NCBI RefSeq assembly: GCF_000300815.1
Contig: NZ_AMRX01000008.1
Coordinates: forward strand, 682,001 to 746,000
Reading direction: 5' to 3'
DNA from: Gayadomonas joobiniege G7
GTDB lineage: Bacteria > Pseudomonadota > Gammaproteobacteria > Enterobacterales > Alteromonadaceae
Length of the DNA stretch: 64,000 nt
Both the position numbers and the translations under genes were made by a program. The notes below the pieces were generated by a model. That model was not told the DNA's origin, made no database searches, and saw only the letters and a list, made by a program, of their open reading frames with translations. Positions 2,662 to 56,835 of this stretch are shown here, in pieces. Numbering within the stretch: the first letter of the stretch is position 1; every line of letters starts with the position of its first letter.

Positions 2662-2805
2662 AGCTATTAGCTCTATCTATTATGGAGCTCGTTTAAGTGT
2701 CATACAAAATTAAATAATTCTTGTTAAATAATTTGCTCTGAATGAAACTTTGTGTTTACAATTGGTATTACATGTAAATATACTCTTGTCATTCAGGTGC
2801 CGATT

Positions 2806-3648
2806 ATGTTTTTACCAAAAATAAGTGTTTTGGTTATCTTGCTAGCTTTATTATCTGGCTGCGGTAGTTCTTCAACTGGGCCGGCTGCGATTAAACAGCC
2901 GGAACCTTTGCCTTCCCCGAGCCCTTCACCACAACCAGGCGAAGAAGCGTTGGAACCAGCCTCAGCCCCTTATGATGTTCAGGCATACCAGGCTGTGATT
3001 GATGATGCTTATTTACAAGCACCGACCAGCACTAAGCTGATTGCTCATGGCGATTTTGATGGCCAGTATAATCAATACTTCTTTATCCCTAAGCAGGGAA
3101 ATGCATGGATGACGTTTAGAGTGTCTGGTGATCATAAGCGCTCGGAACTGCGCCAGATTAGTGAATGGTATGTAAATGATGCGAACTATGTTTACCAATT
3201 AAGCGGTGAAGTTAAAATCATAGATCCTTTGGCCGAGTCGGTTGATGAAATCACATTTATGCAAATTCATGATGTGACAAAAAATAGTAATGCTATTAAC
3301 AAACCTCTATTGCGAGTAGTTTGGCTTCGTGAACGCAGCGGAATACAAAACAATTATTGGGCTGTGATTAAAGCAAATGCATGTTTAGAGTGCTCAGAAT
3401 ACGATAAGATCCCATTGGGTGCTTATTCAGCCGATGAGGTCGCAAATATCCAAATCACAGTCAAAAATAGTCGTATGAGCATTGCATTTAATGATCAAGT
3501 GAATCCACAAATTGATGAATACGATATTAGTTATTGGGATCATCTCGAAAGTTACTTCAAAGCAGGTGTATATAACCAGACTGATGGCACGGCAACAGTT
3601 CAATTTAAATCTTTAAACTTTTTAAAGATACCAATTAACAATAACTAA
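2806..3648 (+). CDS. PL7-family alginate lyase, lipoprotein
   Basis: All three diagnostic PL7 motifs are present in order: RSELR (residues 112-116), QIH (153-155) and YFKAGVYNQ (250-258). PL7 enzymes cleave alginate by beta-elimination in a jelly-roll fold; QIH in the second motif is usually linked to action on G-containing blocks. The chosen start is ATG 2806, with AGG at 2795-2797. It gives a clean lipoprotein signal ending in LLSGC (Cys19), followed by a Pro/Ser linker (about residues 30-50). An upstream in-frame start would add 18 residues that spoil the signal peptide. Outer-membrane anchoring is inferred. Alginate is a brown-algal polymer, so this gene stands apart from the galactan enzymes around it. 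Confidence 0.88.
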   Translation: MFLPKISVLVILLALLSGCGSSSTGPAAIKQPEPLPSPSPSPQPGEEALEPASAPYDVQAYQAVIDDAYLQAPTSTKLIAHGDFDGQYNQYFFIPKQGNAWMTFRVSGDHKRSELRQISEWYVNDANYVYQLSGEVKIIDPLAESVDEITFMQIHDVTKNSNAINKPLLRVVWLRERSGIQNNYWAVIKANACLECSEYDKIPLGAYSADEVANIQITVKNSRMSIAFNDQVNPQIDEYDISYWDHLESYFKAGVYNQTDGTATVQFKSLNFLKIPINNN

Positions 3649-3730
3649 TCGCTTTATTGGTAAATATCAATTTTTTACAAATTCTGGTCAGATTAATCAA
3701 TTGTTAACTGTACAACCGGATATTAACATT

Positions 3731-3763: not shown

Positions 3764-5173
3764 ATGGATTTAATCCAATTTTTTGGCCGTTTCCATGTGT
3801 TGGTGTTGCATTTGCCAATTGGCATTTTGTTAATGGCCGCGGTGTTAGAATTATATGCGTTGTTTTTTAATAAACAGCGAACAAAAACATTGCAAACCAT
3901 TTGGTTGTGGGGTGCGTTATCGGCGTGCGGCGCCGCGCTATTGGGTTACTTATTGTCGCTAGGCGGCGGTTACAACGCAGACGCAGTTTTTGTTCATAAA
4001 GCTTTTGCTTTTGCCGTTATAGGCTGTGCTTTTATTTGCTGGTTTTATTTTTGTTTGTTAAGCCGCATTTCTTCCAAATTTGCCCCCTTTATCACCACAA
4101 TTTTGTGTTTTGGTCAGCTGTTTTTACTATTTTCAACGGGTCATTATGGCGCAAATATGACCCATGGTTCGACTTATTTGTTTGATTATGCGCCCGATCC
4201 CGTTCGTAAATTAGCGGGTTTGGAAGCTCACCCGACACCACGCGAAAAAGTAACGGATTTGGCTCAGGCGCATGTTTATCTCGATTTGATTGGACCTGTC
4301 TTGGAGCAAAAATGTGTTGCTTGCCATAATGATGACAAAAGCAAAGGCAAACTTAATTTAACCCGACTAGATTCGCTTTTTAAAGGTGGGCAGTCCGGGC
4401 CAGCAGTGGTAGCTGGCGATCTCAATGCCAGTGAGCTGTATCGGCGCATTACTTTAGACAGCCATGATAAAAAATTTATGCCAGCGGGTGGAAAGCCACC
4501 GCTAAGCGATATTCAAGTTAAAACATTGGCTTGGTGGATTGAAGCCGGATTGCCGCAGGATAAGCTGTTAGGTGAGCTGGAACTTGATGATACAGCGCGC
4601 TCGATTTTGGCAACTCAACTGGGATTGCAAGCAGCCAAAGGCAGCTGGCCATTAGCTAAAACTGAGCCTTTATCACAAACACTGGCTGATGAACTAACGG
4701 CAGCAGGATTTGTGGTTAAACAAATATCGCAAGACGTCGCTTATATCGATTTAGATTATTCAGTTTCACGGCAAGCATTTACCGATCAGGCGCTTGAAGT
4801 TTTATTAAAGGCTAAAGACCATGTGGCTTGGCTTAATTTGGCTAATAGTCAAGTGAGCGATCCGCAGCTGGCTGCACTTTCTCAATTAACTCATCTGATA
4901 AAACTGAGATTAGAAAAAAATCCAATTACCAGTCAGGGGATCAATCATCTTGCAGGGTTAGATCAGCTGACTTATCTGAATTTATACAAAACTAAAGTTG
5001 ATGATCAGGTTTTTAGCGCGTTGCAACAGCTTCCAGCACTAAAAAATTTGTATTTAACCGAAACCCTTGTTAGCGAACAAGCACTGACCCAATGGCAGCA
5101 AAAAAATAAAACAAGTTCACTTCAGGTAATTGCCGCCAATTATGATTTGATGGGACAAAATAATGAAAAATAA
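3764..5173 (+). CDS. Membrane protein: DUF2231-like + Planctomycete-type cytochrome c + leucine-rich repeats
   Basis: A three-part protein of 469 residues. About four hydrophobic helices lie within residues 8-130, starting with the FHVLVLHLPIG motif typical of DUF2231-like membrane domains. A PSCyt1-like domain (~170-265) follows, with one c-type haem site CVACH (Cys184, Cys187, His188) and the sequence KFMPAGGKPPLS, where a Met could be the distal ligand. The C-terminal part (~330-440) shows leucine-rich repeats of the type L..L..LTHLIKLRLEKNPI. The haem domain should face the periplasm. ATG 3764 is chosen over GTG 3758. It overlaps the next gene by 11 bases and heads the block. The function is unknown; a membrane-anchored electron-transfer partner for the downstream DUF1553 and DUF1501 proteins is my inference. 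Confidence 0.8.
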   Translation: MDLIQFFGRFHVLVLHLPIGILLMAAVLELYALFFNKQRTKTLQTIWLWGALSACGAALLGYLLSLGGGYNADAVFVHKAFAFAVIGCAFICWFYFCLLSRISSKFAPFITTILCFGQLFLLFSTGHYGANMTHGSTYLFDYAPDPVRKLAGLEAHPTPREKVTDLAQAHVYLDLIGPVLEQKCVACHNDDKSKGKLNLTRLDSLFKGGQSGPAVVAGDLNASELYRRITLDSHDKKFMPAGGKPPLSDIQVKTLAWWIEAGLPQDKLLGELELDDTARSILATQLGLQAAKGSWPLAKTEPLSQTLADELTAAGFVVKQISQDVAYIDLDYSVSRQAFTDQALEVLLKAKDHVAWLNLANSQVSDPQLAALSQLTHLIKLRLEKNPITSQGINHLAGLDQLTYLNLYKTKVDDQVFSALQQLPALKNLYLTETLVSEQALTQWQQKNKTSSLQVIAANYDLMGQNNEK

Positions 5174-6326
5174 TCAATTTAGTAAACGCGACTTTTTAAA
5201 AAATACGGCTTTGTTATCGGCCGGGATGATGTTATCAGGTGCCAGCCGTAGTGTGATGGCTAAAACCTCTAAAAATCCAATAGCCGCCGATCAGGTAGGC
5301 CGCTCGGCCCATGGCAAAATAGTTGGCCATGGTGATTTTAAATATAAGGTAAATTTTGAGTGGGGTAATTTGCATCCGCATAAAACGCCGGTTGAAAACA
5401 GTCATGGTTTAGCTATCGACTCAAAAGGTCGAATCATAATGTGCACCGACAGTGATGTGAATAATTTTATTGTTTATAACAAAGACGGGAAATTAATAGA
5501 CGCATGGGGTACACAACACCCAGGTGCACATGCTGTCAAAATCGTTAATGAAAATGGCGAAGACGTGATTTATATCGTCGACAGTGGTTGGATTTTGAAC
5601 CGTCACCGCACCAGTAATCAGTGGCGCGGTAAGTGGATTAAACAAACGGGTTTTGTTTCTAAATTAACCATAGACGGAAAACTGATTTATACCTTAGCCC
5701 ATCCAGTGCAGCAGGGCATTTATGAACCAGGCATGGCGTATAACCCAACTGATATTGCGATTGCGCCAAATGGTGATTTATATGTCACAGACGGGTACGG
5801 CTCAGATTTTGTCATTCAATATGACAGCCATGGTCGCTATATTCGTCATTGGGGCGGTCCAAAAAATTCTGATCCTAATTATCGGTTAATCAATAGTCAT
5901 GGCATTGAGATTGATAACAGAGATCCGTCCGATCCGCATTTATTAATTAGCTCACGTCAGCAAAAACAACTCAAAGCTTTTTCATTTGATGGCCAATTTC
6001 GTTCGGTGATTGATTTTCCCGGCGCTTATATTGGTGGCCCAGTATTTAAAGGTGATTATTTTTACGCACCGGTTTGTTGGACGGATGATAATGGTCGCAA
6101 ACTGCCCAATTCTGGCTTTATTACGATTGTTGATAAAAACAACCGAGTCGTGGCGAACCCAGGCGGCGCAGCCCCCAACTATATTGATGGAAAATTACAA
6201 CCTATGGCAGGCACATATGGTGTATTTAATCATTGTCATTCGGTGTGTGTAGATGATGAAGAAAATATTTATGTAGGCCAATGGAACGCCCATCAGGCAT
6301 ATCCGATTAAGCTGGAGCGTGTGTAA
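5163..6326 (+). CDS. Tat-exported NHL-repeat beta-propeller protein
   Basis: The 387-residue product begins with a twin-arginine-like signal (SKRDFLK, then a hydrophobic stretch ending ASRSVMA). It then shows NHL-like blades such as HGLAIDSKGRI, PTDIAIAPNGDLYVTDGYG and HSVCVDDEENIYVGQWN, fitting a six-bladed propeller. The KR instead of RR in the signal is a tolerated variant. It overlaps the gene before by 11 bases and shares TAATG with the gene after, so translation is coupled. Similar propellers accompany DUF1549/DUF1553 proteins in Planctomycetes. They may bind carbohydrate or a lactone, but nothing in the sequence proves an enzymatic activity. Periplasmic location is inferred. Confidence 0.75.
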   Translation: MKNNQFSKRDFLKNTALLSAGMMLSGASRSVMAKTSKNPIAADQVGRSAHGKIVGHGDFKYKVNFEWGNLHPHKTPVENSHGLAIDSKGRIIMCTDSDVNNFIVYNKDGKLIDAWGTQHPGAHAVKIVNENGEDVIYIVDSGWILNRHRTSNQWRGKWIKQTGFVSKLTIDGKLIYTLAHPVQQGIYEPGMAYNPTDIAIAPNGDLYVTDGYGSDFVIQYDSHGRYIRHWGGPKNSDPNYRLINSHGIEIDNRDPSDPHLLISSRQQKQLKAFSFDGQFRSVIDFPGAYIGGPVFKGDYFYAPVCWTDDNGRKLPNSGFITIVDKNNRVVANPGGAAPNYIDGKLQPMAGTYGVFNHCHSVCVDDEENIYVGQWNAHQAYPIKLERV

Positions 6327-9300
6327 TGATAAAAAACAGATATTTAGGTCTCTCAGCAATGACTCTTTTGCTCAGTGGTTGTTTTGATAATGAACCTGAG
6401 CAAGTGTTTGCCGAACCTATACCGGACAAGGTAGATTTTAACTTTGACGTTAAACCAATTCTATCGGACACCTGTTTTTTGTGCCACGGCCCAGATAAAG
6501 TGAATGCAAAAGCGGGTTTAAGTCTAGATACCTTTGAGCATGCGACTTCGCATATTACAGATAACAAAATGGCAGCCATTACGCCGGGAGACGCAGATCA
6601 ATCGGAAATTTATCATAGAATTATTTCAGAAGATGATAATTTTGTGATGCCGCCCCCGAGCTCAAATTTAAAACTCTCGCCTCGCGATAAAGCCATCATC
6701 AAAAAATGGATTGAGCAAGGTGCAGAATATAAAAAACATTGGGCTTTTATAAAACCAGAAAAAACAGAGCTACCAGAGGTTAAAAATGCAGCTTGGGTAA
6801 AATCTCCAATCGATGCCTATGTATTGGATAAAATCGAAAAACGTGGTTATGAGCCAGCACAAAGGGCAGATAAAGTCAGTTTAATTCGGCGCTTAAGTTT
6901 CGATTTAACAGGCTTGCCACCAACCGAAAAAGAGGTGGCTGACTTTTTAGCGGATCAGTCTGATTCAGCCTGGCATCAATTAATCAATTATTATATGGCA
7001 AAACCCGCTTATGGCGAGCGTATGGCACAAGAATGGTTGGATGTTGCTCGTTTTGCCGATACGCATGGTTATAGCACAGATTTTTACCGTGATATGTCAC
7101 CATACCGCGACTGGGTGATTGATAGTTTTAACCAAAACCGCCCTTTTGATCAATTTATTAGTTGGCAGATTGCCGGTGATTTAATGCCAAATCCAAGCAC
7201 TGAACAAAGGCTGGCTACTGCGTTCAATCGGGTGCATGCACAAAACGGTGAAGGGGGCATAGTTAATGAAGAGTTTAGAGTTGAATATGTTAAAGATAGG
7301 GTACAAACATTAGGCACGGGGTTAATGGGTTTAACTATGCATTGTGCTCAATGTCACGATCATAAATATGACCCTATCTCGGCCAAAGAATATTATCAAA
7401 CCACAGCGTTTTTTAATAATTTAGATGAATCTGGTCAGATATCTTATGATCCAAATGATATGCCTGTGCCGACTATGTTATTGCCAAGCGCTGAAGAAAA
7501 AGCTCAGTTAACCAAGTTAACCACTGAGATTAAAAGCCTTGAGAATCGATTGCAAGCAATCAAACAAACGGCTAACGACGCTTTTAATCAATGGAAAGGC
7601 AGTTTTTCAATTGCAGCGGCAAAAACCAGCGCTCAACAGCATTTGATTGCAGATTATCCATTGACGTTAGAAGATAACAATGAAGCTATTAAAAATCGTT
7701 TAAACGGTGAAGCACAAGGCAAAGTCATCTATGGCTCTAACGTTAAGAAAAAAGACGGCCCGGCCATGCAGTATTATCAGCAGGATAGTCGCCAAGCGAT
7801 TAAGTTAAACGGAGACGATCCTTTATATTTTCAGCATTTAAATGATTTTAGAAGAGGTATTCCTTTTGCTGTGACTATAGATGCCTGGTTGCCTGAATCT
7901 GCACAAGAAGGTGTGCTTTTTCACTATAATAAAGCTGGTATTTTATATAACTTTAAAGGTTTTGATGTGGGTATAGAACACGGCCATTGGCATGTTCGGC
8001 TGGCCCATACTTATCCATATAATGCGATTTCTTTAAAATCAGTTGCTCCAGTACAAAAGGAACAATGGCTAAATGTTGCTTTTTCTTACGATGGCTCATC
8101 TAAAGCCAGTGGCGTAGATTTTTATGTCAATGGTCACGCGGTTGAGATGCAGGTAGAGAGAGACAACCTGTACAAAGAAATAAAACATACTAAAGCGCAG
8201 GTGCTTGAAGAAATTGGTCTTAAAGTGGGTGCCCGTTGGCGAAGTCGAGGTATCGCGGGTGCAATCGTTGATAATTTAAAAGTGTATAACAGTCAGTTGA
8301 GTCGTGTAGAGTTAATGGCCACCTCAGATTTACAAACGGCCAAACTCAGCGAAGAATTATTATTAGAGCATTATTTATTGCGCCATCATAAAGCGTATCA
8401 AAGTGAGCTAGCAGCACTGGCCGCACGCCGAGATGATTTAAATCAGCAGCAAGAAGCCGTTAAAGAAGTCATGGTGATGGAAGAGATGAAAACACCACGC
8501 CAAGCTTATATTTTGTTACGTGGCAGTTATGCAAGTCACGGAGATCCGGTTGAACCTGGTGTGCCTGAAGCGGTTTTACCATACGACCCGAGCTGGCCAA
8601 AAAACCGTTTAGGATTAGCTAAATGGTTAACGCACAAAGATAATCCTTTGGTCTCTCGCGTATTGGTAAACCGTTATTGGCAGATGTTTTTTGGCGATGG
8701 CATTGTGCGCACACCGGAAGATTTTGGCAATCAGGGTAAACGTCCAACCCATCCAGCACTATTAGACTGGTTGGCGGTTGAGTTTGTTGAATCTGGTTGG
8801 AATTTGAATCATTTAGTAAAACTTATGCTGCATTCATCCACTTATCAGCAATCCTCTAAAGCAACAACAGAACTACTGCAAAAAGATCCAGAAAATACCC
8901 TTTTCGCGCGCGCTTCTGCGCAACGTTTAACCGCTGAAATGTTGCGCGATAACGTCTTAGCCGTTAGTGGTTTGCTGGTGGATAAAATTGGCGGTAAAAG
9001 TACCCATCCATATCAACCTGACGGGATCTGGAGCATGAACAATATGGAATATAAACAAGGCAGTGGTGAAGATTTATATCGCCGCAGCATGTATACCATA
9101 TATAAACGCAGTACACCGCCACCCAATATGACTAACTTTGACGCCTCTATGCGTGGCCACAGTATCGGCCAGCGTCAAGAAACCAATACACCACTGCAAT
9201 CGTTGACCCTATTAAATGACCCACAAGTGGTTGAAGCGAGCCGGGTGCTGGCTGAAAAAATGATGCAAAAACGACCCAAGGTGGAAGATCAGTTAGCTGG

Positions 9301-9532
9301 GGTATTTAAAGCCCTAACAAGCCGAGAGGTCACAGCTGAGCAGTTGCAAATACTTCATCAGATGTATCAGCGGGTGGTTGTAGATTTTAAACAAGATCCA
9401 AGTAAAGCCGAAGCCTTTTTAAATGTCGGTGAAATGCCGGTAAATAGCGATCTGCCTGCCGTCGAGCTTGCAGCTTTAGGTACCGTAAGCAATATGTTGG
9501 TCAGCCATGACGCGGCCGTTATTAAGCGATAA
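6326..9532 (+). CDS. PSCyt1 / DUF1549 / LamG / DUF1553 multidomain cytochrome lipoprotein
   Basis: A 1068-residue protein with the Planctomycete-type architecture: lipobox LLSGC (Cys19), PSCyt1 haem domain with CFLCH (Cys50-His54), DUF1549 (~145-370) including a second haem site CAQCH (Cys340-His344), an inserted concanavalin/LamG-like beta-sandwich (~460-650) and a C-terminal DUF1553 (~745-1020, with NRYWQMFFG and RLTAEMLRDN motifs). The two haem sites imply electron transfer in the periplasm or at the cell surface. It shares TAATG with the preceding gene and lies 17 bases before the DUF1501 gene. These families are abundant in Planctomycetes and Verrucomicrobia, usually near sulfatases and glycosidases. 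Their reaction is not established to my knowledge. Finding the set in a gammaproteobacterial island suggests transfer as a unit. Confidence 0.88.
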   Translation: MIKNRYLGLSAMTLLLSGCFDNEPEQVFAEPIPDKVDFNFDVKPILSDTCFLCHGPDKVNAKAGLSLDTFEHATSHITDNKMAAITPGDADQSEIYHRIISEDDNFVMPPPSSNLKLSPRDKAIIKKWIEQGAEYKKHWAFIKPEKTELPEVKNAAWVKSPIDAYVLDKIEKRGYEPAQRADKVSLIRRLSFDLTGLPPTEKEVADFLADQSDSAWHQLINYYMAKPAYGERMAQEWLDVARFADTHGYSTDFYRDMSPYRDWVIDSFNQNRPFDQFISWQIAGDLMPNPSTEQRLATAFNRVHAQNGEGGIVNEEFRVEYVKDRVQTLGTGLMGLTMHCAQCHDHKYDPISAKEYYQTTAFFNNLDESGQISYDPNDMPVPTMLLPSAEEKAQLTKLTTEIKSLENRLQAIKQTANDAFNQWKGSFSIAAAKTSAQQHLIADYPLTLEDNNEAIKNRLNGEAQGKVIYGSNVKKKDGPAMQYYQQDSRQAIKLNGDDPLYFQHLNDFRRGIPFAVTIDAWLPESAQEGVLFHYNKAGILYNFKGFDVGIEHGHWHVRLAHTYPYNAISLKSVAPVQKEQWLNVAFSYDGSSKASGVDFYVNGHAVEMQVERDNLYKEIKHTKAQVLEEIGLKVGARWRSRGIAGAIVDNLKVYNSQLSRVELMATSDLQTAKLSEELLLEHYLLRHHKAYQSELAALAARRDDLNQQQEAVKEVMVMEEMKTPRQAYILLRGSYASHGDPVEPGVPEAVLPYDPSWPKNRLGLAKWLTHKDNPLVSRVLVNRYWQMFFGDGIVRTPEDFGNQGKRPTHPALLDWLAVEFVESGWNLNHLVKLMLHSSTYQQSSKATTELLQKDPENTLFARASAQRLTAEMLRDNVLAVSGLLVDKIGGKSTHPYQPDGIWSMNNMEYKQGSGEDLYRRSMYTIYKRSTPPPNMTNFDASMRGHSIGQRQETNTPLQSLTLLNDPQVVEASRVLAEKMMQKRPKVEDQLAGVFKALTSREVTAEQLQILHQMYQRVVVDFKQDPSKAEAFLNVGEMPVNSDLPAVELAALGTVSNMLVSHDAAVIKR

Positions 9533-9549
9533 GTGAGTAGAGGATAATT

Positions 9550-10995
9550 ATGATTAATCGACGTCAATTTTTAACCCGAGCCGCACAAGGTTTAGGTACA
9601 GCGGCTTTGGCCGGCGCGACTGACTTATCGCTGGCAAAAGACTTATCTGGCTTGGCGATGCAACCAGAACAAAGACCCGATTTAAACGGTATTTTAGGTA
9701 AACCGCATTTGCCTGCAAAAGCAAAACGAGTGATTTATTTATTTCAAAGTGGTGGTCCGTCACAGCTTGAAACCTTTGATTATAAACCCATGCTTAATAA
9801 GATGCATGGACAGGAACTACCTGCAGAAGTGCGCGGCGATCAGGTATTAACTGGTATGAGTGCGCAGCAATCTTCACTGCCTTTGGCTGGATCTATTTAC
9901 GATTTTGCCCAATATGGTGATTCTGGCGCTTGGGTGAGCGAGTTGCTACCTCATACTGCAAAAATCGTCGACGATTTATGTTTTGTAAAATCAATGCATA
10001 CAGATCAAATTAACCATGATCCGGCGATCACCTTTTTGCAAACTGGTTTTCCAATCGCTGGGCGGCCAAGTATTGGGGCTTGGTTAAATTATGGTTTAGG
10101 TACAGATAACAATAATTTACCCGGTTTTATTGTTATGGTCAGCACCAATGGGGGCGGCCAGCCGCTATATTCACGTTTATGGGGCAATGGCTTTTTGCCA
10201 TCCATCCATCAGGGTGTACAGTTTAGAGGTGGTAAAGAACCAGTGCTGTATCTGAACAACCCAAAAGGGCTGAGTATGGATTTGCGCAGTGAGTTGATGC
10301 AGCATTTACGTAAACTCAATGAAGCCGAATATGCGCATTGGCACGATCAAGAAATTAAATCACGCATTGCGCAAATGGAAATGGCTGAGCGCATGCAATC
10401 ATCGGTTCCGGATGTGACCGACTTTTCTGATGAACCCGACTGGGTTTTTGAGATGTATGGGCCAGATTCACGCAAACCTGGTACTTATGCGGCTAACTGT
10501 TTGTTAGCGCGCCGGTTAGCCGAGCGCAATGTTAAATTCACTCAGTTGTATCATCAAGGTTGGGACCAACATGATTATTTACCGGGTGGTATTAAAAATC
10601 AGTGTAAAAAAACGGATCAGGCGTCAGCCGCACTGGTCACGGATTTAAAACAACGTGGTTTATTAGAGGATACCCTAGTTGTTTGGGGCGGTGAGTTTGG
10701 CCGCACCAACTATTCGCAAGGTAAATTAACCGCCACTAACTATGGTCGCGATCATCATCCGGGCTGTTTTACCATGTGGATGGCAGGTGGTGGGGTCAAA
10801 CCTGGCATGAGTTACGGAGAAACCGATGAGTTTGGCTATAACATAACTAAAAATCCTGTTCATGTGCATGATTTTCAAGCGACGCTTCTGCATTTAATGG
10901 GCATAGACCACGAAAAGCTAACCTATAAATACCAAGGCCGTCGTTTTCGATTAACCGATGTTCACGGCAAAATCATCAAAGATATCTTAGCTTAA
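9550..10995 (+). CDS. DUF1501 protein, Tat-exported, alkaline-phosphatase-like fold
   Basis: A 481-residue protein starting with a clear Tat signal (NRRQFLTRAA, then ALAGATDLSLA). The DUF1501 body carries SGGPSQLETFDYKP, HTDQINHDPA, YHQGWDQHDYL, VVWGGEFGRTNYS and NYGRDHHPG. These His/Asp-rich motifs resemble the metal site of the alkaline phosphatase/sulfatase superfamily. AGAGGA lies just upstream of ATG 9550. DUF1501 proteins nearly always accompany DUF1553 cytochromes, as here. The function is unknown; a periplasmic metal-dependent hydrolase working with the haem protein is plausible. A stable hairpin follows the stop, so this probably closes the operon. Confidence 0.85.
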   Translation: MINRRQFLTRAAQGLGTAALAGATDLSLAKDLSGLAMQPEQRPDLNGILGKPHLPAKAKRVIYLFQSGGPSQLETFDYKPMLNKMHGQELPAEVRGDQVLTGMSAQQSSLPLAGSIYDFAQYGDSGAWVSELLPHTAKIVDDLCFVKSMHTDQINHDPAITFLQTGFPIAGRPSIGAWLNYGLGTDNNNLPGFIVMVSTNGGGQPLYSRLWGNGFLPSIHQGVQFRGGKEPVLYLNNPKGLSMDLRSELMQHLRKLNEAEYAHWHDQEIKSRIAQMEMAERMQSSVPDVTDFSDEPDWVFEMYGPDSRKPGTYAANCLLARRLAERNVKFTQLYHQGWDQHDYLPGGIKNQCKKTDQASAALVTDLKQRGLLEDTLVVWGGEFGRTNYSQGKLTATNYGRDHHPGCFTMWMAGGGVKPGMSYGETDEFGYNITKNPVHVHDFQATLLHLMGIDHEKLTYKYQGRRFRLTDVHGKIIKDILA

Positions 10996-11130: not shown

Positions 11131-12966
11131 ATGCAGATAAAATCAAAATTGGCTGTGACCTTATTGGCTTTCTGGTTGCCGCTCACTGTGGTTGCCGCAA
11201 GTCAGGATAAACCCAATATTGTTTTAGTGATGACAGATGATCAGGGCGCAGGCGATATCGGCTTTAATCAAAATCCAATTATCGAAACCCCGAATTTAGA
11301 TCAATTGGCTCAGCAATCCACCCGATTGACTAATTTTCATGTAGACCCGACCTGTTCGCCCACTCGAGCTGCGCTATTAACCGGTAAACATTCACTTAAG
11401 GCTGGGGTTTGGCATACGATTTTAGGACGCTATATGTTAGGGCCTGAGCACCAAACATTAGCCGAAGCTTTAAAACAAGCGGGTTATTCAACTGCTATTT
11501 TTGGTAAATGGCATTTAGGCGATAACTATCCATACCGACCGCAAGATCAAGGTTTTGATCAAGCCGTGATCCATGGCGGCGGTGGTGTTGGGCAAACGCC
11601 TGACTATTGGGGGAACACCCAGTTTGATGATGTTTATTATCGCAATGGTGAACCTGAATTTTTTTCAGGTTATGCAACCAAAGTTTGGTTTGATGAAGCG
11701 ATAAAATATATTAGTCAAAAAAGACAACAACCGCATTTTGCATACATAGCATTGAATGCGCCGCATGGGCCATATCGCGCGCCTGAACCTTATATTAAAC
11801 GCTATCAAGACAAAGGCTTACATTATGATGATGCTGCTTTTTACGGCATGATCAGCTACATAGATGAACAAGTCGCTCGCCTGCGTCAAACAATCAAAAA
11901 CAATGGACAAGAAGATAATACTATCTTTATTTATATGACAGATAACGGCAGCTCAATGCGTGCACTGCGGGGACAAAAATTGACCACAAGGGCTGAAAAA
12001 ATGCAACAGCAATATCCAAATTGGGTCCCAAACAATGGTCGCCGTGGTTTTAAAGGTGAAGTATATGAGGGCGGTCACCGGGTACCCTTTTTAATTTTTT
12101 ATCCAAATGGCCAGTTGGCGGGTGGTGAAATTGATGCGTTAACCGCGCACTATGACGTGCTGCCCACTCTATTAGACATGGTTGGCGGCCCGTCCCCTGC
12201 GGCAGATGTAGATGGCCGCAGCTTAAAAACCTTGTTGCAAAAAGGACAAGATGAAAAGTTGCAAGGTCGATCTGTTATTGTGACCAATCAAAGGGTTTAC
12301 CATCCGGATATCAAACGACCGACAGTGGTGATGCGTGATCAGTGGCGTTATATTGCTTTTAATAATAAAAAAGCCCTATACGATATTCAAAGTGATCCTA
12401 AGCAGCAGGTAAATTTATTAGAATCTAATGATGCAAACATTAAAGCGATTGCTGGTGAGCTTAATTATGAGCAGCAAAACTGGTTTGCGCAGTTAGCTAA
12501 ACTAGGATTTAAAGACAGATATATACATGTTGGAAATTCAGCAGAAGATCCAGTGCGACTCAACGCAATGGATTGGATGGAAGTACCAGATAAACAGCCG
12601 GTTCCTTGGTTTATTGGTCATCAGCCGAATGTGCCTGAATATGACTATGTTCATTGGTTGGGCAAAGAAGATAAATTTTCGGCGCTGCCTTGGTATATCA
12701 ATATTGAGCAAGCGGGTGAGTATAAAATACGTGCTTATTATCACGACAAACCGGCTGCAACCCCAGTCAATACCAGATACTGTGTCATAAAACTCGCTGA
12801 CAAAGTATATTCAAGCCCTATTTATGGTCGTGCTTCATATTGTGAGGTAAAAATCAACGCCAAGGCAGGTAAACAAAAGGTAACAGCTTGGTTTACTAAT
12901 GATTTAGCAACGCAAAAAGAAGAAAAAGCCGCTTTTTATTTATACCTTGATTATCAAGGTAAATAA
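11131..12966 (+). CDS. S1-family sulfatase, secreted
   Basis: A 611-residue formylglycine sulfatase with an N-terminal signal peptide ending near VVAAS. The metal-binding MTDDQG is at ~34-39 and the maturation motif is CSPTR (Cys75), which fits C-x-P-x-R; GKWHLGDNYP and TDNGSS supply other active-site and metal residues. The C-terminus (~480-611) forms an extra beta-rich domain. The family hydrolyses sulfate esters, and the genomic setting points to sulfated galactan. It stands 135 bases after the DUF1501 gene and 81 bases before GH117, so it may have its own promoter. Cys75 must be converted to formylglycine by an enzyme not encoded here. The exact S1 subfamily cannot be assigned by eye. Confidence 0.88.
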   Translation: MQIKSKLAVTLLAFWLPLTVVAASQDKPNIVLVMTDDQGAGDIGFNQNPIIETPNLDQLAQQSTRLTNFHVDPTCSPTRAALLTGKHSLKAGVWHTILGRYMLGPEHQTLAEALKQAGYSTAIFGKWHLGDNYPYRPQDQGFDQAVIHGGGGVGQTPDYWGNTQFDDVYYRNGEPEFFSGYATKVWFDEAIKYISQKRQQPHFAYIALNAPHGPYRAPEPYIKRYQDKGLHYDDAAFYGMISYIDEQVARLRQTIKNNGQEDNTIFIYMTDNGSSMRALRGQKLTTRAEKMQQQYPNWVPNNGRRGFKGEVYEGGHRVPFLIFYPNGQLAGGEIDALTAHYDVLPTLLDMVGGPSPAADVDGRSLKTLLQKGQDEKLQGRSVIVTNQRVYHPDIKRPTVVMRDQWRYIAFNNKKALYDIQSDPKQQVNLLESNDANIKAIAGELNYEQQNWFAQLAKLGFKDRYIHVGNSAEDPVRLNAMDWMEVPDKQPVPWFIGHQPNVPEYDYVHWLGKEDKFSALPWYINIEQAGEYKIRAYYHDKPAATPVNTRYCVIKLADKVYSSPIYGRASYCEVKINAKAGKQKVTAWFTNDLATQKEEKAAFYLYLDYQGK

Positions 12967-13047
12967 TAAATTATGTAACTTTTATAGCAACGTTAATTTG
13001 TCTGTGTTATATTTTTGTTGTTCACTGTAAACAATTTGAGGCAGGCA

Positions 13048-14340
13048 ATGAATCTATCTAATATAAAAGTTTCGCTGTTGATCGCTGCGTTATGTGCGGG
13101 CTCTGCGGTCGCGCCAGTTAACGCAGCACCAGAGCGATCGGTTTTCCCACATAAGGTACCAACCGAAAAACCAGATATTCCATTAAGTGCGGCAATGGAG
13201 CGAATGTTTGAATATGATGCGCCTAGGCCGCAAGATAGTGAGTTTTATACCCAGTTCAAATACAGCCGTTTGCAGGGGTTTGATTATAACGGCGGTGACG
13301 GTACTATCACGCGCAGAGATCCATCTAGACCTATTTTAGTAGATGGTAAATATTATATTTATTATACCAAGCGCCATACCAAAGTTCCGCCAGTTGGGGC
13401 TGCGAATGCGGCGCAAGCGACCGATGAAATTCCGAGTACTGATTGGGATCTGGCCGACTTGTGGTATGCAACTAGTACCGATGGAGTCACTTGGGCAGAG
13501 CAGGGGGTCGCTGTACCTCGCCCAGCCAAACCGCATCCGGGCCATCGCTCGGTTGCAACGCCTGATATCTTGATCTGGAAAGGCAAGTACTATCTATATT
13601 ACCAAGCGTTTAATGAGCCTAGTGGTTTAAAAGGCGACCACAGTGTGGTGACGGTTTCTTGGGCTGACTCGCCAGAGGGGCCCTGGACACCTCTTAACAA
13701 AGCAGTCATCACGCCGGGACAAAAAGGGGATTGGGATCAAAGTTTAATTCATGATCCAATGCCAATTGTTTATAACGACCAAATATATGTTTATTTTAAA
13801 TCCACTTATAATAAATGGCCGGACAACCGCAAAAACTATCATGTTGCACATGGTTTGGCGATTTCTGATGATCCGCTAAAAACCTTTAAAAAACATCCAT
13901 TAAACCCTGTCATTAATTCAGGTCATGAAACTTTTTATTTTCCATTTAAAAGCGGGGTTGCTGGGGTAATTATCCGAGACGGTATCGAGCGCAATACCGT
14001 TCAGTACGCAGAAGATGGAGTTAACTTTAAAATTCAGGCGAATATTTCATTGCCGCCTATCGCTGGAGGCCCCTATACACCTGATGCTTTTACCAATACA
14101 GATAATGGCCGTGGTGTAACTTGGGGGATCAGTCATTTTATTAATTTTGGTCCTAAACGCCACTCAGAGTTGTTACGTTTTGATTGTGATTTGAGCTTGG
14201 ATATGCATGACCCGGCCTTTAAATCACCTAATATTTGGTTTAAACCTGAGGTTTATTTTAACTCACTCGGTTTATCTAAAAAACAATTAGAAGCACGCAA
14301 AGCAAAGGCTAAAAACGTCGCTCAAGACTCCAACCATTAA
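13048..14340 (+). CDS. GH117-like alpha-1,3-(3,6-anhydro)-galactosidase
   Basis: A propeller glycosidase with a signal peptide (LIAALCAGSAVAPVNA). Three conserved GH117 elements are present: RRDPS (Asp91), IHDPMP (Asp236) and NSGHE (His293/Glu294). These correspond to the acidic and His residues used for catalysis in characterised neoagarobiose hydrolases. ATG 13048 is preferred over TTG 13015 because GAGGCAGG lies 3-10 bases upstream and it gives the proper signal peptide. The expected reaction is release of 3,6-anhydro-L-galactose from neoagaro-oligosaccharides. It is paralogous to the truncated gene at 1-319 and lies before the two GH50 genes, matching an agar pathway. Some GH117 members have other activities, so substrate is inferred. 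Confidence 0.85.
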   Translation: MNLSNIKVSLLIAALCAGSAVAPVNAAPERSVFPHKVPTEKPDIPLSAAMERMFEYDAPRPQDSEFYTQFKYSRLQGFDYNGGDGTITRRDPSRPILVDGKYYIYYTKRHTKVPPVGAANAAQATDEIPSTDWDLADLWYATSTDGVTWAEQGVAVPRPAKPHPGHRSVATPDILIWKGKYYLYYQAFNEPSGLKGDHSVVTVSWADSPEGPWTPLNKAVITPGQKGDWDQSLIHDPMPIVYNDQIYVYFKSTYNKWPDNRKNYHVAHGLAISDDPLKTFKKHPLNPVINSGHETFYFPFKSGVAGVIIRDGIERNTVQYAEDGVNFKIQANISLPPIAGGPYTPDAFTNTDNGRGVTWGISHFINFGPKRHSELLRFDCDLSLDMHDPAFKSPNIWFKPEVYFNSLGLSKKQLEARKAKAKNVAQDSNH

Positions 14341-21680: not shown

Positions 21681-22388
21681 ATGTCCGATCCCTGTAAACC
21701 TCATCAATCTAACGGACTAATTTGCCAAAGTGTTTTATTAGATACTGCCGAAGGCATTGAAATCGAGTTTCAACCCGCCGGATTAGGCATACGTTCAATT
21801 GCATTTGTTATTGACCTCGGCGTGCGCCTTGTTATTTTTATTCTATTAGCTTTATTAGTCGGATTTTTCGGCGATTTTGGCACAGGTTTAATGTTAATTG
21901 GTGTATTTTTATTAGAGTGGTTTTACCCAATTATATTTGAATATTATTGGGGCGCGACACCGGGTAAAAAGCTCACTGGCCTTAAAGTTATTTATGCGAA
22001 CGGATTGCCGTTAACTTTGCCTGGGGCTATGACTCGGAATCTTTTTAGAACGATAGATTTTTTACCCTTTGCGTATTGTCTGGGTGCAATCAGTATGCTG
22101 ACTAGCAAACAGTTTCAGCGTATTGGTGATTGGGTCGCAGGGACCATGGTGGTCTACCAAAACGAAAACAAAACATATCACCCAGCAGAAAGTCAGCAGC
22201 AATTTAGCTCTGATTTTGTCCTTTCAACCGAAGAACAAGTCGCTGTGATACGTTTTGCAGAGCGCGAACCCTTATTATCAAAAAGCCGCAGTAAGGAACT
22301 CGCCGCTATTTTATCGCCGCTTTTCAAATCTAATTTGTCTGCCAGCGAATGCCTTAAAGCAATGGCCAACCGTTACTTAGGTAAATAA
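21681..22388 (+). CDS. RDD-family membrane protein
   Basis: A 235-residue protein with an RDD-type core of about three to four membrane helices. The Arg-Asp pattern is visible in GIRSIAFVIDLGVRL and later in NLFRTIDFLPFAY and RIGDWVAGTMV. It begins a six-gene operon with SpoIIM, DUF4129, DUF4350, MoxR and DUF58 proteins, all overlapping or touching. AAAGGATG precedes ATG 21681. RDD proteins have been linked to transport and stress; in this cluster type the role is undefined. The soluble C-terminal ~80 residues are variable. Confidence 0.82.
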   Translation: MSDPCKPHQSNGLICQSVLLDTAEGIEIEFQPAGLGIRSIAFVIDLGVRLVIFILLALLVGFFGDFGTGLMLIGVFLLEWFYPIIFEYYWGATPGKKLTGLKVIYANGLPLTLPGAMTRNLFRTIDFLPFAYCLGAISMLTSKQFQRIGDWVAGTMVVYQNENKTYHPAESQQQFSSDFVLSTEEQVAVIRFAEREPLLSKSRSKELAAILSPLFKSNLSASECLKAMANRYLGK

Positions 22389-23341
22389 TGAAACAAACTC
22401 AATTTATCTCAATTCGGCAAGCCCATTGGCAAAAGTTAGAAGCTTTTTTTAATGGTGAGGCGTCAGCCGAAAAACTTGATTTACCGGCTTTATTGCGTGC
22501 AGTGACCCATGATCTGGCCGTGGCTAAAAGCCGCGGATATAGTCCAGCCATTATAGACCGCTTAAATACTTTGATTACAAGCGCACAAGCTCATATGTAT
22601 CGCCCTAAACAGCGTATTGGATATCAATTAATTCGATTTTTGCGGTTGGGTTTTCCGCTTTCTGTGCAAAATTTAAAACAGGCCTGTGTTATTAATCATA
22701 TATTATTTTATGGTTTTGCATTGCTTGCCGCTGGCCTTGTTGCCTATCAACCACAAATGATTTATTCCTTTGTTGATAATGCTCAATTGCGCACTATGGA
22801 GCATATGTACAATCCAGACGCCAATTGGCGACAGATCGAAAGAGCCTCATCAGGCGATTTCCAAATGTTTGGCTTTTACATATTTAACAATATAAAAATT
22901 GCCTTTCAGACATTTGCCGGTGGTTTGTTGTTGGGTGTTGGAGCTTTGTTTTATTTGTTGTTTAACGGTTTTTATTTTGGTGCGCTTAGTGCTCATATGG
23001 TGAATATAGGGTATCAGTCGACTTTTTTTTCGTTTGTGATCACTCACGGTGCATTTGAGTTAACTGCCATCGTTTTATCAGCCGCGGCCGGCACGCATAT
23101 CGGCTATAGCTTATTAAATCCAGGTCGATTAAGCCGCCACATTGCCGTTAAACAAGCTGCGTTAAGGGCCTTTCCTGTTTTATTGGGAGCCTTTGTATTT
23201 TTAGTGATTGCCGCGTTTATTGAAGCATTTTGGTCTTCCAGCCAAGCTTTGCCACAGGGTGTTAAATACGCAGTAGGCACCTTATGTTGGATTGGTGTGG
23301 CTATTTATTTTTGCCGGGGCCTTAAATATGCAACTAGATAA
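22388..23341 (+). CDS. SpoIIM-like (stage II sporulation protein M family) membrane protein
   Basis: A 317-residue integral membrane protein with about five helices after a soluble N-terminal ~90 residues. The segment FNNIKIAFQTFAGGLLLGVGALFYL and the HGAFELTAIVLSAAAG motif are typical of the SpoIIM/DUF95 family. The organism is not a spore former; family members in Gram-negatives occur in MoxR clusters. It shares TAATG with the RDD gene and overlaps the next gene by 14 bases. A role in envelope or peptidoglycan processes is inferred from the family and the cluster. Confidence 0.82.
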   Translation: MKQTQFISIRQAHWQKLEAFFNGEASAEKLDLPALLRAVTHDLAVAKSRGYSPAIIDRLNTLITSAQAHMYRPKQRIGYQLIRFLRLGFPLSVQNLKQACVINHILFYGFALLAAGLVAYQPQMIYSFVDNAQLRTMEHMYNPDANWRQIERASSGDFQMFGFYIFNNIKIAFQTFAGGLLLGVGALFYLLFNGFYFGALSAHMVNIGYQSTFFSFVITHGAFELTAIVLSAAAGTHIGYSLLNPGRLSRHIAVKQAALRAFPVLLGAFVFLVIAAFIEAFWSSSQALPQGVKYAVGTLCWIGVAIYFCRGLKYATR

Positions 23342-24869
23342 GTTAAGGATAGAATTACGGCCCCGAACGGGATGGCAAGCAGTAGATTTGGGCTGCCGCA
23401 TGGCGGTGTTTTGGTTCCGACCGCTATTTTTTATTTGGCTGCTGGTGAGTTTACCTATTTTTATTGCCATTGTTTGGCTATCCCCGCTTTGGGCGATTAT
23501 TTTAGTTTGGTTATTAAAACCTTTGTTTGAGCGAGCTCAGCTTTATTATTTAAGTCGGGCGGTATTTTCGGCTGAACCTAGTGTAACAGAAACACTTAAA
23601 AATTGGCCGGGTCAGTGTAAAAACGGCGGGCTGTCCAGCTGCACTTTAACGCGAATTTTATTTTCTCGCAGCTATCGGCTGGCGGTTTTTCAATTAGAGC
23701 AGCTAAAAGGTTCCGCGCGTAAAAATCGCTTGCGGATATTCCACAGAGACAACGACGACCAGTCCGCTTGGTGGGGCGTGGTGTGTTATATATGGGAGTG
23801 GATACTCTTTGCGGGTTTACTGTCGCTGTTTGGCTGGTTAACCCCGCAAGGAGTCGCGCCATTTGATTTTTATCAATTGTTTTATTCTGAATATTGGCAG
23901 TTGATTTCGGCGACGCTTATCTATGTTTGTTTTGCGTTGGTTTCTCCTTTTTATTTAGCTGGTGGCTTTAGCCTTTATTTAAACCGGCGAGTCATGCTTG
24001 AAGCTTGGGATATTGAGTTAGCTTTTAAAAAAATACGTCAACGCCTAGTCTCAAAAGTCAGTGTGTTTGTGATGTGTGCGTTTTGTTTTACCGGTGTTTC
24101 TACAACTTTTTCTCCGGTGCATGCGAACCCACCAAAAGTAAATATAAACCTCAGTGCGCCCAAAGGGGTTAAAAACACTGATGTTGCAGAGCAAACCAAA
24201 CGGATGCAAACAAAGCTTGCGAATACGCAAAAATTAATCGATCAGGTTTATCAAAAAGAGCCGTTTAAAAATGTAAAAACCACTAAACATTTAGTTTGGG
24301 TGGGGCCAGATTTAAGTGTTTCTAGCGATTTTGATTTAAGTTTTTTGGCCGAGTTTATTAAGTCTATTAGCTTGTTTATTGAAATAATGCTCTGGGCAAT
24401 TTTTATTATTGGTTTTTTTGCCTTGGTATTTTATCTCCGCAAACATCTCTTTTTTTGGCGCAAATTTAAAAAAGTAGATCTGGCTGAAAAAGTGCAAATG
24501 CCTGATTTTATTGTCGATGATAGATCTGAATATGCCATAACTAATTGTCACCAGTTTATCCAGTTAGTTGAAACAGCGATAGCAAATGCCGATTTTAGAT
24601 TCGCTCTGTCGTTAATTATCCGTTTTAGTTTGCACCAAATGAGTCAAGCTTATCGCGTTCGTTTGAGTCGCTCGATGACGGAGCAAGAGTGCCTAAATAG
24701 TCTTAAACAAGAGGTCCCCACAGCGATTTATGAACATATAGCGGCGGTTTTTAAGCTATGGATACAACTCGCTTGGGCGCATAGATCCGCGCAGCATGAC
24801 GAAGTGCAATCGCTTTATCAAAAAAGTATCGAGCTCTTTGTGCATTCAAAAAAAGCGGAGGCAAAATAA
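23328..24869 (+). CDS. DUF4129-type membrane protein of the MoxR cluster
   Basis: A 513-residue membrane protein with N-terminal helices (~25-65), further helices (~140-220), a periplasmic part with VSTTFSPVHANPP, another helix around residues 350-375 and a cytoplasmic C-terminal region with the DUF4129-like FRFALSLIIRFSLHQM...SRSMTEQECL pattern. ATG 23328 is chosen over GTG 23292 because CGGGG lies 8 bases upstream. It overlaps SpoIIM by 14 bases. Related proteins carry this domain next to DUF4350 and MoxR. It may form a membrane complex with the neighbours. The function is not known. Confidence 0.75.
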   Translation: MQLDKLRIELRPRTGWQAVDLGCRMAVFWFRPLFFIWLLVSLPIFIAIVWLSPLWAIILVWLLKPLFERAQLYYLSRAVFSAEPSVTETLKNWPGQCKNGGLSSCTLTRILFSRSYRLAVFQLEQLKGSARKNRLRIFHRDNDDQSAWWGVVCYIWEWILFAGLLSLFGWLTPQGVAPFDFYQLFYSEYWQLISATLIYVCFALVSPFYLAGGFSLYLNRRVMLEAWDIELAFKKIRQRLVSKVSVFVMCAFCFTGVSTTFSPVHANPPKVNINLSAPKGVKNTDVAEQTKRMQTKLANTQKLIDQVYQKEPFKNVKTTKHLVWVGPDLSVSSDFDLSFLAEFIKSISLFIEIMLWAIFIIGFFALVFYLRKHLFFWRKFKKVDLAEKVQMPDFIVDDRSEYAITNCHQFIQLVETAIANADFRFALSLIIRFSLHQMSQAYRVRLSRSMTEQECLNSLKQEVPTAIYEHIAAVFKLWIQLAWAHRSAQHDEVQSLYQKSIELFVHSKKAEAK

Positions 24870-26134
24870 TGCGGATACTAGCCCATTGGCGTTGGTTCAT
24901 CAGTGTATTTTTGCTCTTGCTGATTGCCTGGTTTTGTTATCAAAACTTTGTTTGGAAACAAAAAAAAATCGTTTTAGGGCTCCCCGACGATGTGATGCAG
25001 CAGCCATTTTTGGCATTACAAGGTTTTGCCGAGTTAAATAATCAAGATTTGCTCGTGTCGACTGAGTATCCGCTACTTTTTTCTCAGCAAGCCGAAAGAC
25101 AGCTAGTACCGAACAAAAATGGCGTTTTAATCATAGGGCATAGTGACCAGTTGATCACAGCTCGGCAAGCTGAGGCTATTTTAGCTTGGGTCGAACAGGG
25201 CGGCCATTTAATTTTTGCCACCGATGCGGCTATGTATCGACAATTAAGAGATATTTATGACCCGCTTTGGTTAAAATTCCAGATCAGGCTGAGTTTTCCT
25301 ACATCGGCTGAATTTCAGCGCAGACAGGAGAATAAGCAACTTGAAACAAAAGAAACACTCGAGCCACAAGATAACACAGAAGCAGAGCAAAAAAATGAAG
25401 CAGAAGCGAACAGTGAAGTTGTAAAATCACCTGAATACCAAAGCCAAATAAACACAGCTGATGGCCAAGTCTTTTACGTAAACTTGAACAAAAGTTACCG
25501 CATTCAGATCCCACAAGAGACAGAAATCATAAATTACAGTGCTGATCGACATGGTTATACTTTTGTTCAATTCAAACGCCAACAAGGTTTGGTTAGTTTG
25601 CTGACCCATATAGATCTTTGGAACAATATCCAGCTAGCGGACGCCAATAATGGTTATTTTTATCAATGGTTAACAACGTCATCAACAGATATTTTATTGA
25701 TGCATTCGGTTGCCAAAGAGACTTGGTTAGTCCGTTTGAGTAAATGGTCGCCCATGTTAATCGCCTGTCTTATCCTTTACATTTTATTTTTTGTTTGGCG
25801 GCAAGCTGTGCGTTTTGGACCCGCTTACCAGCTGGATGAAACCAGTGTTCAATTTTTTAATCAACATATTGAAGCGGCCGGTGATTATTATTGGCAACAT
25901 GGGCAAAGCGATCGTTTAATAGATGCCCTGCAAAGCGAAGTGTTAGAGTTGGCTCAGCGGCGCTGGCCGGGGTTTGCAAGTTGGCCCGAACAAACACGTA
26001 TTTTGCATTTGCATGAGCAAACTGAATTACCGCAAGCTGATATTCAGGCGGCACTCAATACAGCTAAACACAAAAGTGAAGATAGCTTTACGCTACAGGT
26101 GCAAGTGCTACAAAAAATAAGGAAAATAATATGA
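24869..26134 (+). CDS. DUF4350-type membrane protein
   Basis: A 421-residue protein with an N-terminal anchor (RWFISVFLLLLIAWF), a Rossmann/GATase-like DUF4350 domain (~40-250: GVLIIGHSDQLITARQAEAILAWVEQGGHLIFA), a second membrane helix (~290-310) and a cytoplasmic tail. The stretch at ~155-190 is a Glu/Lys/Gln-rich low-complexity insert. It shares ATAATG with the preceding gene and overlaps moxR-like by four bases (ATGA). The DUF4350/MoxR/DUF58 order is standard in this operon type. Confidence 0.8.
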   Translation: MRILAHWRWFISVFLLLLIAWFCYQNFVWKQKKIVLGLPDDVMQQPFLALQGFAELNNQDLLVSTEYPLLFSQQAERQLVPNKNGVLIIGHSDQLITARQAEAILAWVEQGGHLIFATDAAMYRQLRDIYDPLWLKFQIRLSFPTSAEFQRRQENKQLETKETLEPQDNTEAEQKNEAEANSEVVKSPEYQSQINTADGQVFYVNLNKSYRIQIPQETEIINYSADRHGYTFVQFKRQQGLVSLLTHIDLWNNIQLADANNGYFYQWLTTSSTDILLMHSVAKETWLVRLSKWSPMLIACLILYILFFVWRQAVRFGPAYQLDETSVQFFNQHIEAAGDYYWQHGQSDRLIDALQSEVLELAQRRWPGFASWPEQTRILHLHEQTELPQADIQAALNTAKHKSEDSFTLQVQVLQKIRKII

Positions 26135-56496: not shown

Positions 56497-56508
56497 GAGG
56501 ATATTAAA

Positions 56509-56817
56509 ATGGCAAAAGTTACTTTTATTACGGCAGATGATGAACAAATCACTTTAGAAGGAGATTCAGGTTCGGTAATGGAACTGGCAGTACAAAATGA
56601 TGTGGCTGGTATTGATGGTGATTGTGGTGGCGTTTGCTCATGCGCAACTTGTCATGTTCATGTAGCGCCAGAACATTTGGCAAAAGTGGGTAGTGCCAGT
56701 GAAATCGAGCAAGATATGTTAGAGCTAGATGATAATGCAAACGAGTATAGCCGTTTGTGTTGCCAAATTGAGCTGAACGAGCAAATTGATGGCGTGATTT
56801 TACGCGTTGCACAATAA
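56509..56817 (+). CDS. [2Fe-2S] ferredoxin of adrenodoxin type
   Basis: A 102-residue ferredoxin with Cys39, Cys45, Cys48 and Cys85 in the C-x5-C-x2-C-x36-C spacing (GDCGGVCSCATCH, RLCCQI). It has two extra Cys (43 and 84). It carries electrons from the downstream reductase to the P450. AGAGG lies 8 bases before ATG 56509. Confidence 0.93.
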   Translation: MAKVTFITADDEQITLEGDSGSVMELAVQNDVAGIDGDCGGVCSCATCHVHVAPEHLAKVGSASEIEQDMLELDDNANEYSRLCCQIELNEQIDGVILRVAQ

Positions 56818-56835
56818 GTTAAAATAGGATCTACG

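Follow-up and report, generated by a model that had tools for sequence, protein, structure and literature searches.

The closest described relatives of the genes considered here are the adjacent PSCyt2/PSD1 (DUF1549/DUF1553) and DUF1501 genes of Planctomycetes and Verrucomicrobia. PMC5615132 describes sets of PSCyt domains, two unknown gene families adjoining them and a proximity to sulfatases; it calls the function unknown and suggests an action on mono- or oligosaccharides. PMC2754498 relays the suggestion of a redox function for the family and puts PSD1 and PSC2 at 41 copies apiece in Rhodopirellula. In other papers, DUF1501 and DUF1800 are reported near chitin synthases, with twin-arginine translocation (Tat) motifs (PMC5122149), DUF1501 is mentioned only as an off-target amplicon (PMC4982196) and a 2012 study of DUF1501 clusters is cited (PMC4452313). 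No experimentally tested function was found in the portions of the DUF1501 and DUF1553 literature covered by our search. Redox and carbohydrate roles for the family have been suggested before; new here are a swap of membrane modules, sets of invariant residues and a regulatory link. They come from a block of four genes in the marine, seaweed-degrading bacterium Gayadomonas joobiniege G7, in a 64,000-nucleotide stretch (contig NZ_AMRX01000008.1, positions 682,001 to 746,000) that we call the window. The block has the same domains in adjacent genes as the planctomycete pair. Unlike that pair, it adds a membrane protein with DUF2231-type and cytochrome domains, an NHL protein resembling peptidyl-hydroxyglycine lyase (PAL) and an AraC-linked operator element, and its nearest kin outside Alteromonadales are in Bacteroidota.

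We propose, with a probability of about 0.42, that the products of all four genes make up a single redox enzyme of the periplasm, inducible and linked to the membrane, whose substrate is a sugar bearing L-galactose. The catalytic pair would consist of the dihaem DUF1553 lipoprotein and the DUF1501 protein, a former sulfatase or phosphatase fold whose active site would have lost its nucleophile and become a metal site of His, Asp and Glu. As the substrate is oxidised, its electrons would flow from the haem c of the DUF1553 protein to that of the membrane protein, then through the DUF2231 domain, predicted to bind haem b via invariant His residues on the periplasmic side, to the quinone pool. 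The NHL protein would offer a zinc hemiaminal lyase site for the next, non-redox step, the opening or cleavage of a product resembling a hemiacetal or lactone. The block would be turned on by an AraC-type regulator, probably along with the release of L-galactose, a sugar of red algae, and the substrate is probably L-galactose or a porphyran or agar fragment ending in it.

The earlier note on this DNA described four coupled genes carrying three haem sites, and both descriptions hold. The open reading frames (ORFs) lie on the + strand at 3764-5173, 5163-6326, 6326-9532 and 9550-10995, with an 11-nt overlap, a 1-nt overlap and a 17-nt gap between them. There are three CxxCH motifs, one in the first gene and two in the third, all invariant across the aligned rows (32/32 and 51/51, respectively). 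For conservation of gene order, we used 80 stretches, the best of 186 confirmed in a named genome collection, a sample biased by having been picked for similarity to the window DUF1553 protein. Our own profiles were run on 93 loci, of which 14 ending at contig ends were set aside, leaving 79; the duplicates L046 and L048 (of L036 and L033) were dropped from locus counts and kept in alignments. The predicted linkage was borne out: the cassettes contain a DUF1501 gene at 77 of these loci, the membrane protein gene at 50, the NHL gene at 36 and a cytochrome plus cytochrome b561 at eight. The window gene order, which we call type A, occurs at ten loci.

The third gene (6326..9532) encodes a single exported protein of the architecture PSCyt1-PSCyt2(DUF1549)-LamG-PSD1(DUF1553), as had been read from the sequence. 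Its Pfam scores are all over the cut-off (57.7 bits for PSCyt1, 280 for PSCyt2/DUF1549, 327 for PSD1/DUF1553), a LamG domain is present, and the lipoprotein Cys19 is invariant (51/51). The first CxxCH (residues 50-54; 6473..6487, + strand), with axial Met108, is conserved in 51/51 rows, and in a wider set of 73 sequences C50, C53, H54 and M108 are found in 72, 73, 72 and 72, respectively. The second (residues 340-344; 7343..7357, + strand) is followed by an invariant His346 (73/73), and no distal Met was assigned to it. Covalent haem c is predicted on this protein and on the membrane protein from the invariant CxxCH motifs and axial Met residues.

As for the membrane protein (3764..5173), it comprises a four-helix DUF2231-type domain with five His invariant in 32/32 rows, a PSCyt1 haem c domain and an LRR C-terminus. 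Its CxxCH (residues 184-188; 4313..4327, + strand), with axial Met239, is equally invariant (32/32). The label DUF2231-cytochrome-LRR given to it earlier needs some qualification: PSCyt1 is matched in Pfam and 29 of the 32 aligned members match DUF2231, but the protein itself has no DUF2231 match at E<=0.01 and its LRR match is below threshold. The five His would lie on the periplasmic side, since hydrophobicity and the need for the cytochrome to sit outside place them there.

A comparison with other arrangements gives a clue to the role of this module. The Gayadomonas genome (3.9 Mb, 99.99% complete), with three DUF1553 loci and seven PSCyt1 matches, has five related arrangements, A to E, A being that of the window. 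Type B runs NHL, DUF1553, DUF1501, membrane-anchored PSCyt1 protein and cytochrome b561, and type C DUF1553, DUF1501, DUF2231-PSCyt1 and NHL; type D pairs a fused DUF2231-PSCyt1-PSD3/5/4-PSCyt3-PSD2 protein, whose DUF2231 match is weak (E 0.01), with DUF1552, and type E is a DUF1800 gene with DUF1501. The type B cytochrome protein amounts to the window membrane protein less its DUF2231 domain (E 6e-23 for PSCyt1 and 6e-12 for the C-terminal LRR), and the b561 gene follows its gene. The membrane protein and b561 never occur in one cassette among the 79 loci, and both modules have invariant His sets in a short membrane bundle. The presence of b561 in the place of DUF2231 suggests that the membrane module performs quinone-linked electron transfer, and the two modules would then be functionally equivalent. 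Together, the haem sites and the membrane module give the block the anatomy of a periplasmic electron-transfer machine, as the earlier note supposed. The type D locus (L017:7516-14711), which holds the DUF1552 gene, is followed by two ORFs of 193 and 539 aa.

The second gene (5163..6326) encodes an exported NHL propeller, recognised in Pfam by its NHL family. It had been called Tat-exported, which is likely but not certain because its signal contains KR instead of RR; in the 29 aligned rows, the window included, nine have KR, 19 RR and one neither. The NHL profile matches rat PAL (3fvz) with an E of 5.5e-13, ranked under two TRIM-type NHL proteins. H123, Y212, H246 and R265 pair with residues 94, 163, 199 and 215 of the 3fvz chain, which, at one offset, we take to be PAL H585, Y654, H690 and R706. 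H359 is matched by blade only, to the blade of PAL H786. All five residues are invariant (29/29) and are also found in two paralogues of the same genome. On this basis, the protein is predicted to have retained the residues that serve PAL for zinc binding and catalysis (three His, a Tyr and an Arg at matching places of a similar propeller) and to be a lyase. It differs from PAL by an Asn or His at the place of Met784, and a peptide substrate is unlikely for it. No PHM copper monooxygenase family was matched by Pfam in the block, the scanned window ORFs or the scanned cassette proteins of the same genome, the rest of which was not searched.

The DUF1501 protein (9550..10995; Pfam, 528 bits) is indeed predicted to be Tat-exported, with an RRxF signal in 47 of 48 DUF1501 rows. 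Comparison of its AlphaFold model (mean predicted local distance difference test score 73, predicted template modelling score 0.78) by Foldseek and VIA-align identifies an alkaline phosphatase superfamily fold, that of S1 sulfatases and of nucleotide pyrophosphatase/phosphodiesterase (NPP) enzymes. We aligned 97 rows from 96 genes, namely 48 close relatives, two paralogues from the same genome, 24 sequences from the Planctomycetes-Verrucomicrobia-Chlamydiae (PVC) group and 23 DUF1800-adjacent ones. H156, D339, H341, R385 and H402 are invariant, position 382 is Glu or Asp (E382 in the window), and D401 and F383 are present in 95 and 96 rows. Unlike in S1 sulfatases and NPP phosphodiesterases, the nucleophile and one metal site are replaced by this His-rich set. 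The nucleophile column holds His (H156) in 97/97 rows, and the C/S-x-P-x-R motif is absent; the pairing of H156 with the catalytic Cys comes from a profile alignment with sulfatases of the same loci, in a register supported by a shared Pro and TG. The metal-binding Asp pair is lost, with Q66/S67 in the window and Met, Leu, Asn, Arg or others elsewhere (register by eye). In the C-terminal part, which matches a sulfatase profile with an E of 3.8e-5, E382 is paired with the Asp of the SDN motif, and the His/Asn of SDH/SDN is replaced by Phe in 96/97 rows. Because the nucleophile column is His, the place of the metal Asp residues is variable and a His-rich set is invariant, the DUF1501 protein appears to have lost the hydrolase mechanism and to have a remodelled, mononuclear site, presumably for a metal.

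The five invariant residues are also kept in all 23 DUF1800-adjacent rows (22 genes). The DUF1800 protein of the type E locus, unlike the DUF1553 protein, lacks CxxCH and has a weak profile match to DUF1549 and DUF1553 (E 0.025 and 0.042). That locus is a DUF1800 and DUF1501 pair at L018:5469-8000 of the Gayadomonas genome, and the fact that its DUF1501 protein keeps the same His/Asp/Glu site suggests a single chemistry common to all DUF1501 proteins.

The regulatory link probably connects the block with a sugar. A putative AraC-type operator with direct CAA repeats about 10 bp apart (3665..3704, + strand) lies 59 bp ahead of the membrane protein gene, and alignment of upstream regions shows this 40-bp element to be common to nine of the ten type A loci. 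A weight matrix made from eight other loci, with the window left out and L050 excluded since it has no site, gives the window element 34.7 bits versus 12.3 for the next best in the 64 kb, and in leave-one-out runs all eight matrix loci were recovered on top. L050 has neither an operator site nor an AraC gene in its region. We knew the window row when we drew up the full pattern, which matches the Gayadomonas genome once at <=3 mismatches; a looser pattern adds one further site with 3 mismatches. The spacing to the start codon is 54-61 bp at seven of nine loci and 78-80 at two. Just 5' of the window, an AraC-type gene (288 aa; C1:680018-680884) has 42-56% identity, along its whole length, with the AraC genes next to seven of the other nine type A blocks; its product would bind the operator. 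Between it and the block lie GH43/117-like, TatD-like, dihydroorotase-like and PL7-type lyase genes.

In two relatives, a second copy of the operator precedes a gene of glycoside hydrolase family 29 (GH29): in Pseudocolwellia agarivorans (18.4 bits, next in region 8.8) and in Paraglaciecola algarum (34.2 bits, next 10.1). For both GH29 proteins, the nearest solved structure is the exo-alpha-L-galactosidase BpGH29, which, according to PMC12316285, works after the sulfatase S1_11 in porphyran breakdown. The presence of the operator before these genes makes L-galactose, or an L-galactose-ended porphyran or agar fragment, the probable substrate. The Paraglaciecola GH29 gene (L195:7087-8597) is interrupted by an in-frame stop and has an L-rhamnose-mutarotase-family gene just upstream. 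In Gayadomonas itself, one of six GH29 genes is of the BpGH29 type (501.5 versus 258.6 bits); it lies 7.3 kb beyond the window end and has no operator matching the full pattern. FucP, above the cut-off, is found in the region of three of the ten type A blocks, and a fuconolactonase-like gene, below it, in one. L-galactose and L-fucose differ at C6 only. The suggestion that the block processes a sugar released by neighbouring enzymes is thus narrowed by the shared operator to L-galactose (or L-fucose), the oxidation itself being our prediction; we prefer L-galactose because the type A hosts are agar and porphyran degraders. The word cytochrome does not occur in the main text of PMC5943477 or of PMC5698469.

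As the families are typical of Planctomycetes and Verrucomicrobia, the block had been called planctomycete-style, which is a matter of family name, not of nearest kin. The best 80 of the 186 relatives are Alteromonadales, then mostly Bacteroidota, with a few Rhodothermota, one Pirellulaceae and one Verrucomicrobiales. The DUF1553 tree that the earlier note had proposed was built from 107 sequences by a quick method, with Shimodaira-Hasegawa-like approximate likelihood ratio test support only and rooting by hand on one PVC row (L081, L083, L093, L098, L120, L044 and the duplicates L046 and L048 excluded). In it, the ten type A loci form one clade (100) inside a 79-row clade to which Bacteroidota contribute 59 rows (100); type A joins 25 Bacteroidota rows with a support of only 81. 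The window type is, on this tree, an Alteromonadales clade among Bacteroidota sequences. Type B forms a separate clade of eight (100), grouped with 13 PVC rows (98). We picked 20 PVC regions by hand, from a Pirellulaceae genome and a Verrucomicrobiales genome. They contain 24 DUF1501 genes, of which 20 have a DUF1553 neighbour on the same strand, so the pair is there as had been said, but our DUF2231 membrane protein, NHL and b561 profiles found no match in these regions. The pair therefore seems to be the core, to which the Bacteroidota/Alteromonadales branch would have added the membrane and NHL genes. DUF1501 matches number at least 87 in the 8.7-Mb Pirellulaceae genome (G320; L106), and those in the regions fetched from it mostly have a DUF1553 partner.

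A number of observations weigh against the reading that we favour. The bound metal and haem b, the redox reaction, its direction and the exact sugar are all predictions, which we count against it. The profile match that sets the register of the DUF1501 nucleophile column is weak (E 0.4). A His stands at the place of H246 in TRIM3 too, and some TRIM-type NHL proteins share one blade His; one His is therefore not diagnostic, and the full set of five is the argument for PAL. Sequence kinship between DUF2231 and b561 is not detectable (hhalign E 0.18), and the swap in type B, whose eight loci form one clade, may have happened just once. As for the operator, a 28.8-bit site in Agaribacter marinus (L194:6999-7038) lies about 330 bp before an HlyD-type membrane-fusion (efflux) gene, which is not explained by the sugar reading; in the Gayadomonas genome, a site where a NUDIX-like ORF (by eye) begins scores 18.4 bits, as much as the Pseudocolwellia GH29 site; and the common upstream element may partly reflect shared descent. 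The DUF1553/DUF1501 pair stands alone at 16 of the 79 loci. Finally, the proximity to sulfatases noted earlier holds for five of the ten Alteromonadales loci versus nine of the 72 others. The tested sulfatase and GH families are absent from the fetched region at 63 of those 72 loci, and several relative loci sit amid housekeeping-looking genes (by eye), so the L-galactose role could hold for the Alteromonadales branch only.

The last points lead to the alternative that survives best, though we find it rather unlikely: a housekeeping role in the envelope or respiration, unrelated to galactans, the Alteromonadales copies merely lying inside a galactan island with a shared regulator. The by-eye neighbours at the Maribacter, Cognataquiflexum/Aquiflexum and Cyclobacterium loci, the scarcity of sulfatases outside Alteromonadales and the three dissimilar DUF1553 loci in a single genome would fit it. 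It is harder to reconcile with the AraC genes beside seven of the other nine type A blocks, with the operator before GH29 in two genomes and with a patchy distribution. DUF1553 is present in 8/8 examined genomes of the genus, in 1/28 others of the family and 0/24 others of the order, and in 2/295 sampled genomes of the order, Gayadomonas being one of the two.

An oxygenase cascade, which we regard as unlikely, would reverse the electron flow: quinol electrons would move outward, first via DUF2231 or b561 and then via haem c, to DUF1553/DUF1501, where O2 would be activated and a sugar C-H hydroxylated, and the NHL protein would cleave the resulting hemiacetal. In animal peptide amidation, cytochrome b561 supplies the electrons. 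There, a monooxygenase acts before PAL (PMC3241674), and the invariance of the PAL residue set, the b561 of type B and the second haem site without an assigned distal Met would suit such a parallel. PSCyt genes are also denser in epilimnion genomes, which the authors of PMC5615132 tie to oxygen availability and carbohydrate complexity. However, no known oxygenase family is found among the scanned block proteins, the NHL gene is missing from the cassette at 43 of the 79 loci, and the direction of electron flow is unreadable from sequence. Doubtful, and given still less credence, is its explicit two-step version, an oxidative cleavage in the periplasm by a haem-c/metal oxygenase, which joins DUF1553 to a converted sulfatase fold (DUF1501) and is fed by quinol through a cytochrome b module (b561 or DUF2231), together with a zinc lyase similar to PAL for cutting the sugar once hydroxylated. 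Like our preferred reading, it has against it a chemistry that is wholly predicted and the many loci outside Alteromonadales that have no tested glycan gene nearby or sit amid housekeeping-looking genes. If true, bacteria would possess a counterpart of PHM-PAL-b561 that is directed at glycans and acts on the L-galactose residues of porphyran.

It is improbable that the DUF1501 protein is still a hydrolase, desulfating or dephosphorylating its substrate by a new single-metal mechanism, with haem proteins that only sense or anchor. Its fold, the C-terminal profile match and the sulfatase neighbours at half of the type A loci speak for this, but the uniform His in the nucleophile column, the unconserved metal Asp column and the Phe in the SDH/SDN motif speak against it, as does the ordinary C-x-P-x-R sulfatase encoded alongside (11131-12966), whose gene adjoins that of the DUF1501 protein. 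Least probable is that the pair makes 3-keto-glycosides for DUF1080-type 3-keto-disaccharide hydrolases, in parallel to flavin glucoside 3-dehydrogenase/cytochrome c systems: in a Colwellia genome (L047:9082-9900), only 224 bp separate one such hydrolase gene from the block, but a DUF1080 gene was found at two loci only (1/93 block loci, 1/20 PVC regions) and not in the window block, with a single-sequence search seed that could miss distant members.

The surroundings of the block are those described earlier. Pfam, run on 40 of the 41 listed ORFs of the window, identifies an Alginate_lyase2 protein 5' of the block (2752-3648) and, 3' of it, the above sulfatase, a Glyco_hydro_43 protein (13015-14340) and two Agarase_CBM proteins; we presume these to be PL7, GH117 and GH50 enzymes. 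Upstream, a TatD-like and dihydroorotase-like tandem (445-2661) is flanked by a GH43/117-like gene and the PL7-type lyase gene. Within the island, a cytochrome P450 gene followed by one for a ferredoxin-reductase-type flavoprotein (55339-58086) presumably resembles the 6-O-methyl-galactose demethylase systems of agar and porphyran degraders. A mid-island row (21681-28448) encodes RDD, SpoIIM, one more protein, DUF4350, a MoxR-type AAA protein and DUF58, and a 732-aa protein (34274-36472) has no Pfam match at E 0.001.

DUF1501 and DUF1553 are heavily multiplied in Planctomycetes, and a widespread family gains a testable substrate. The block is compact, regulated and found in a culturable genus, and our predictions for it cover an inducer, a co-regulated enzyme and individual residues of each protein. 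If the redox reading is true, the DUF1501 protein would be a sulfatase-fold protein recruited into an oxidoreductase.

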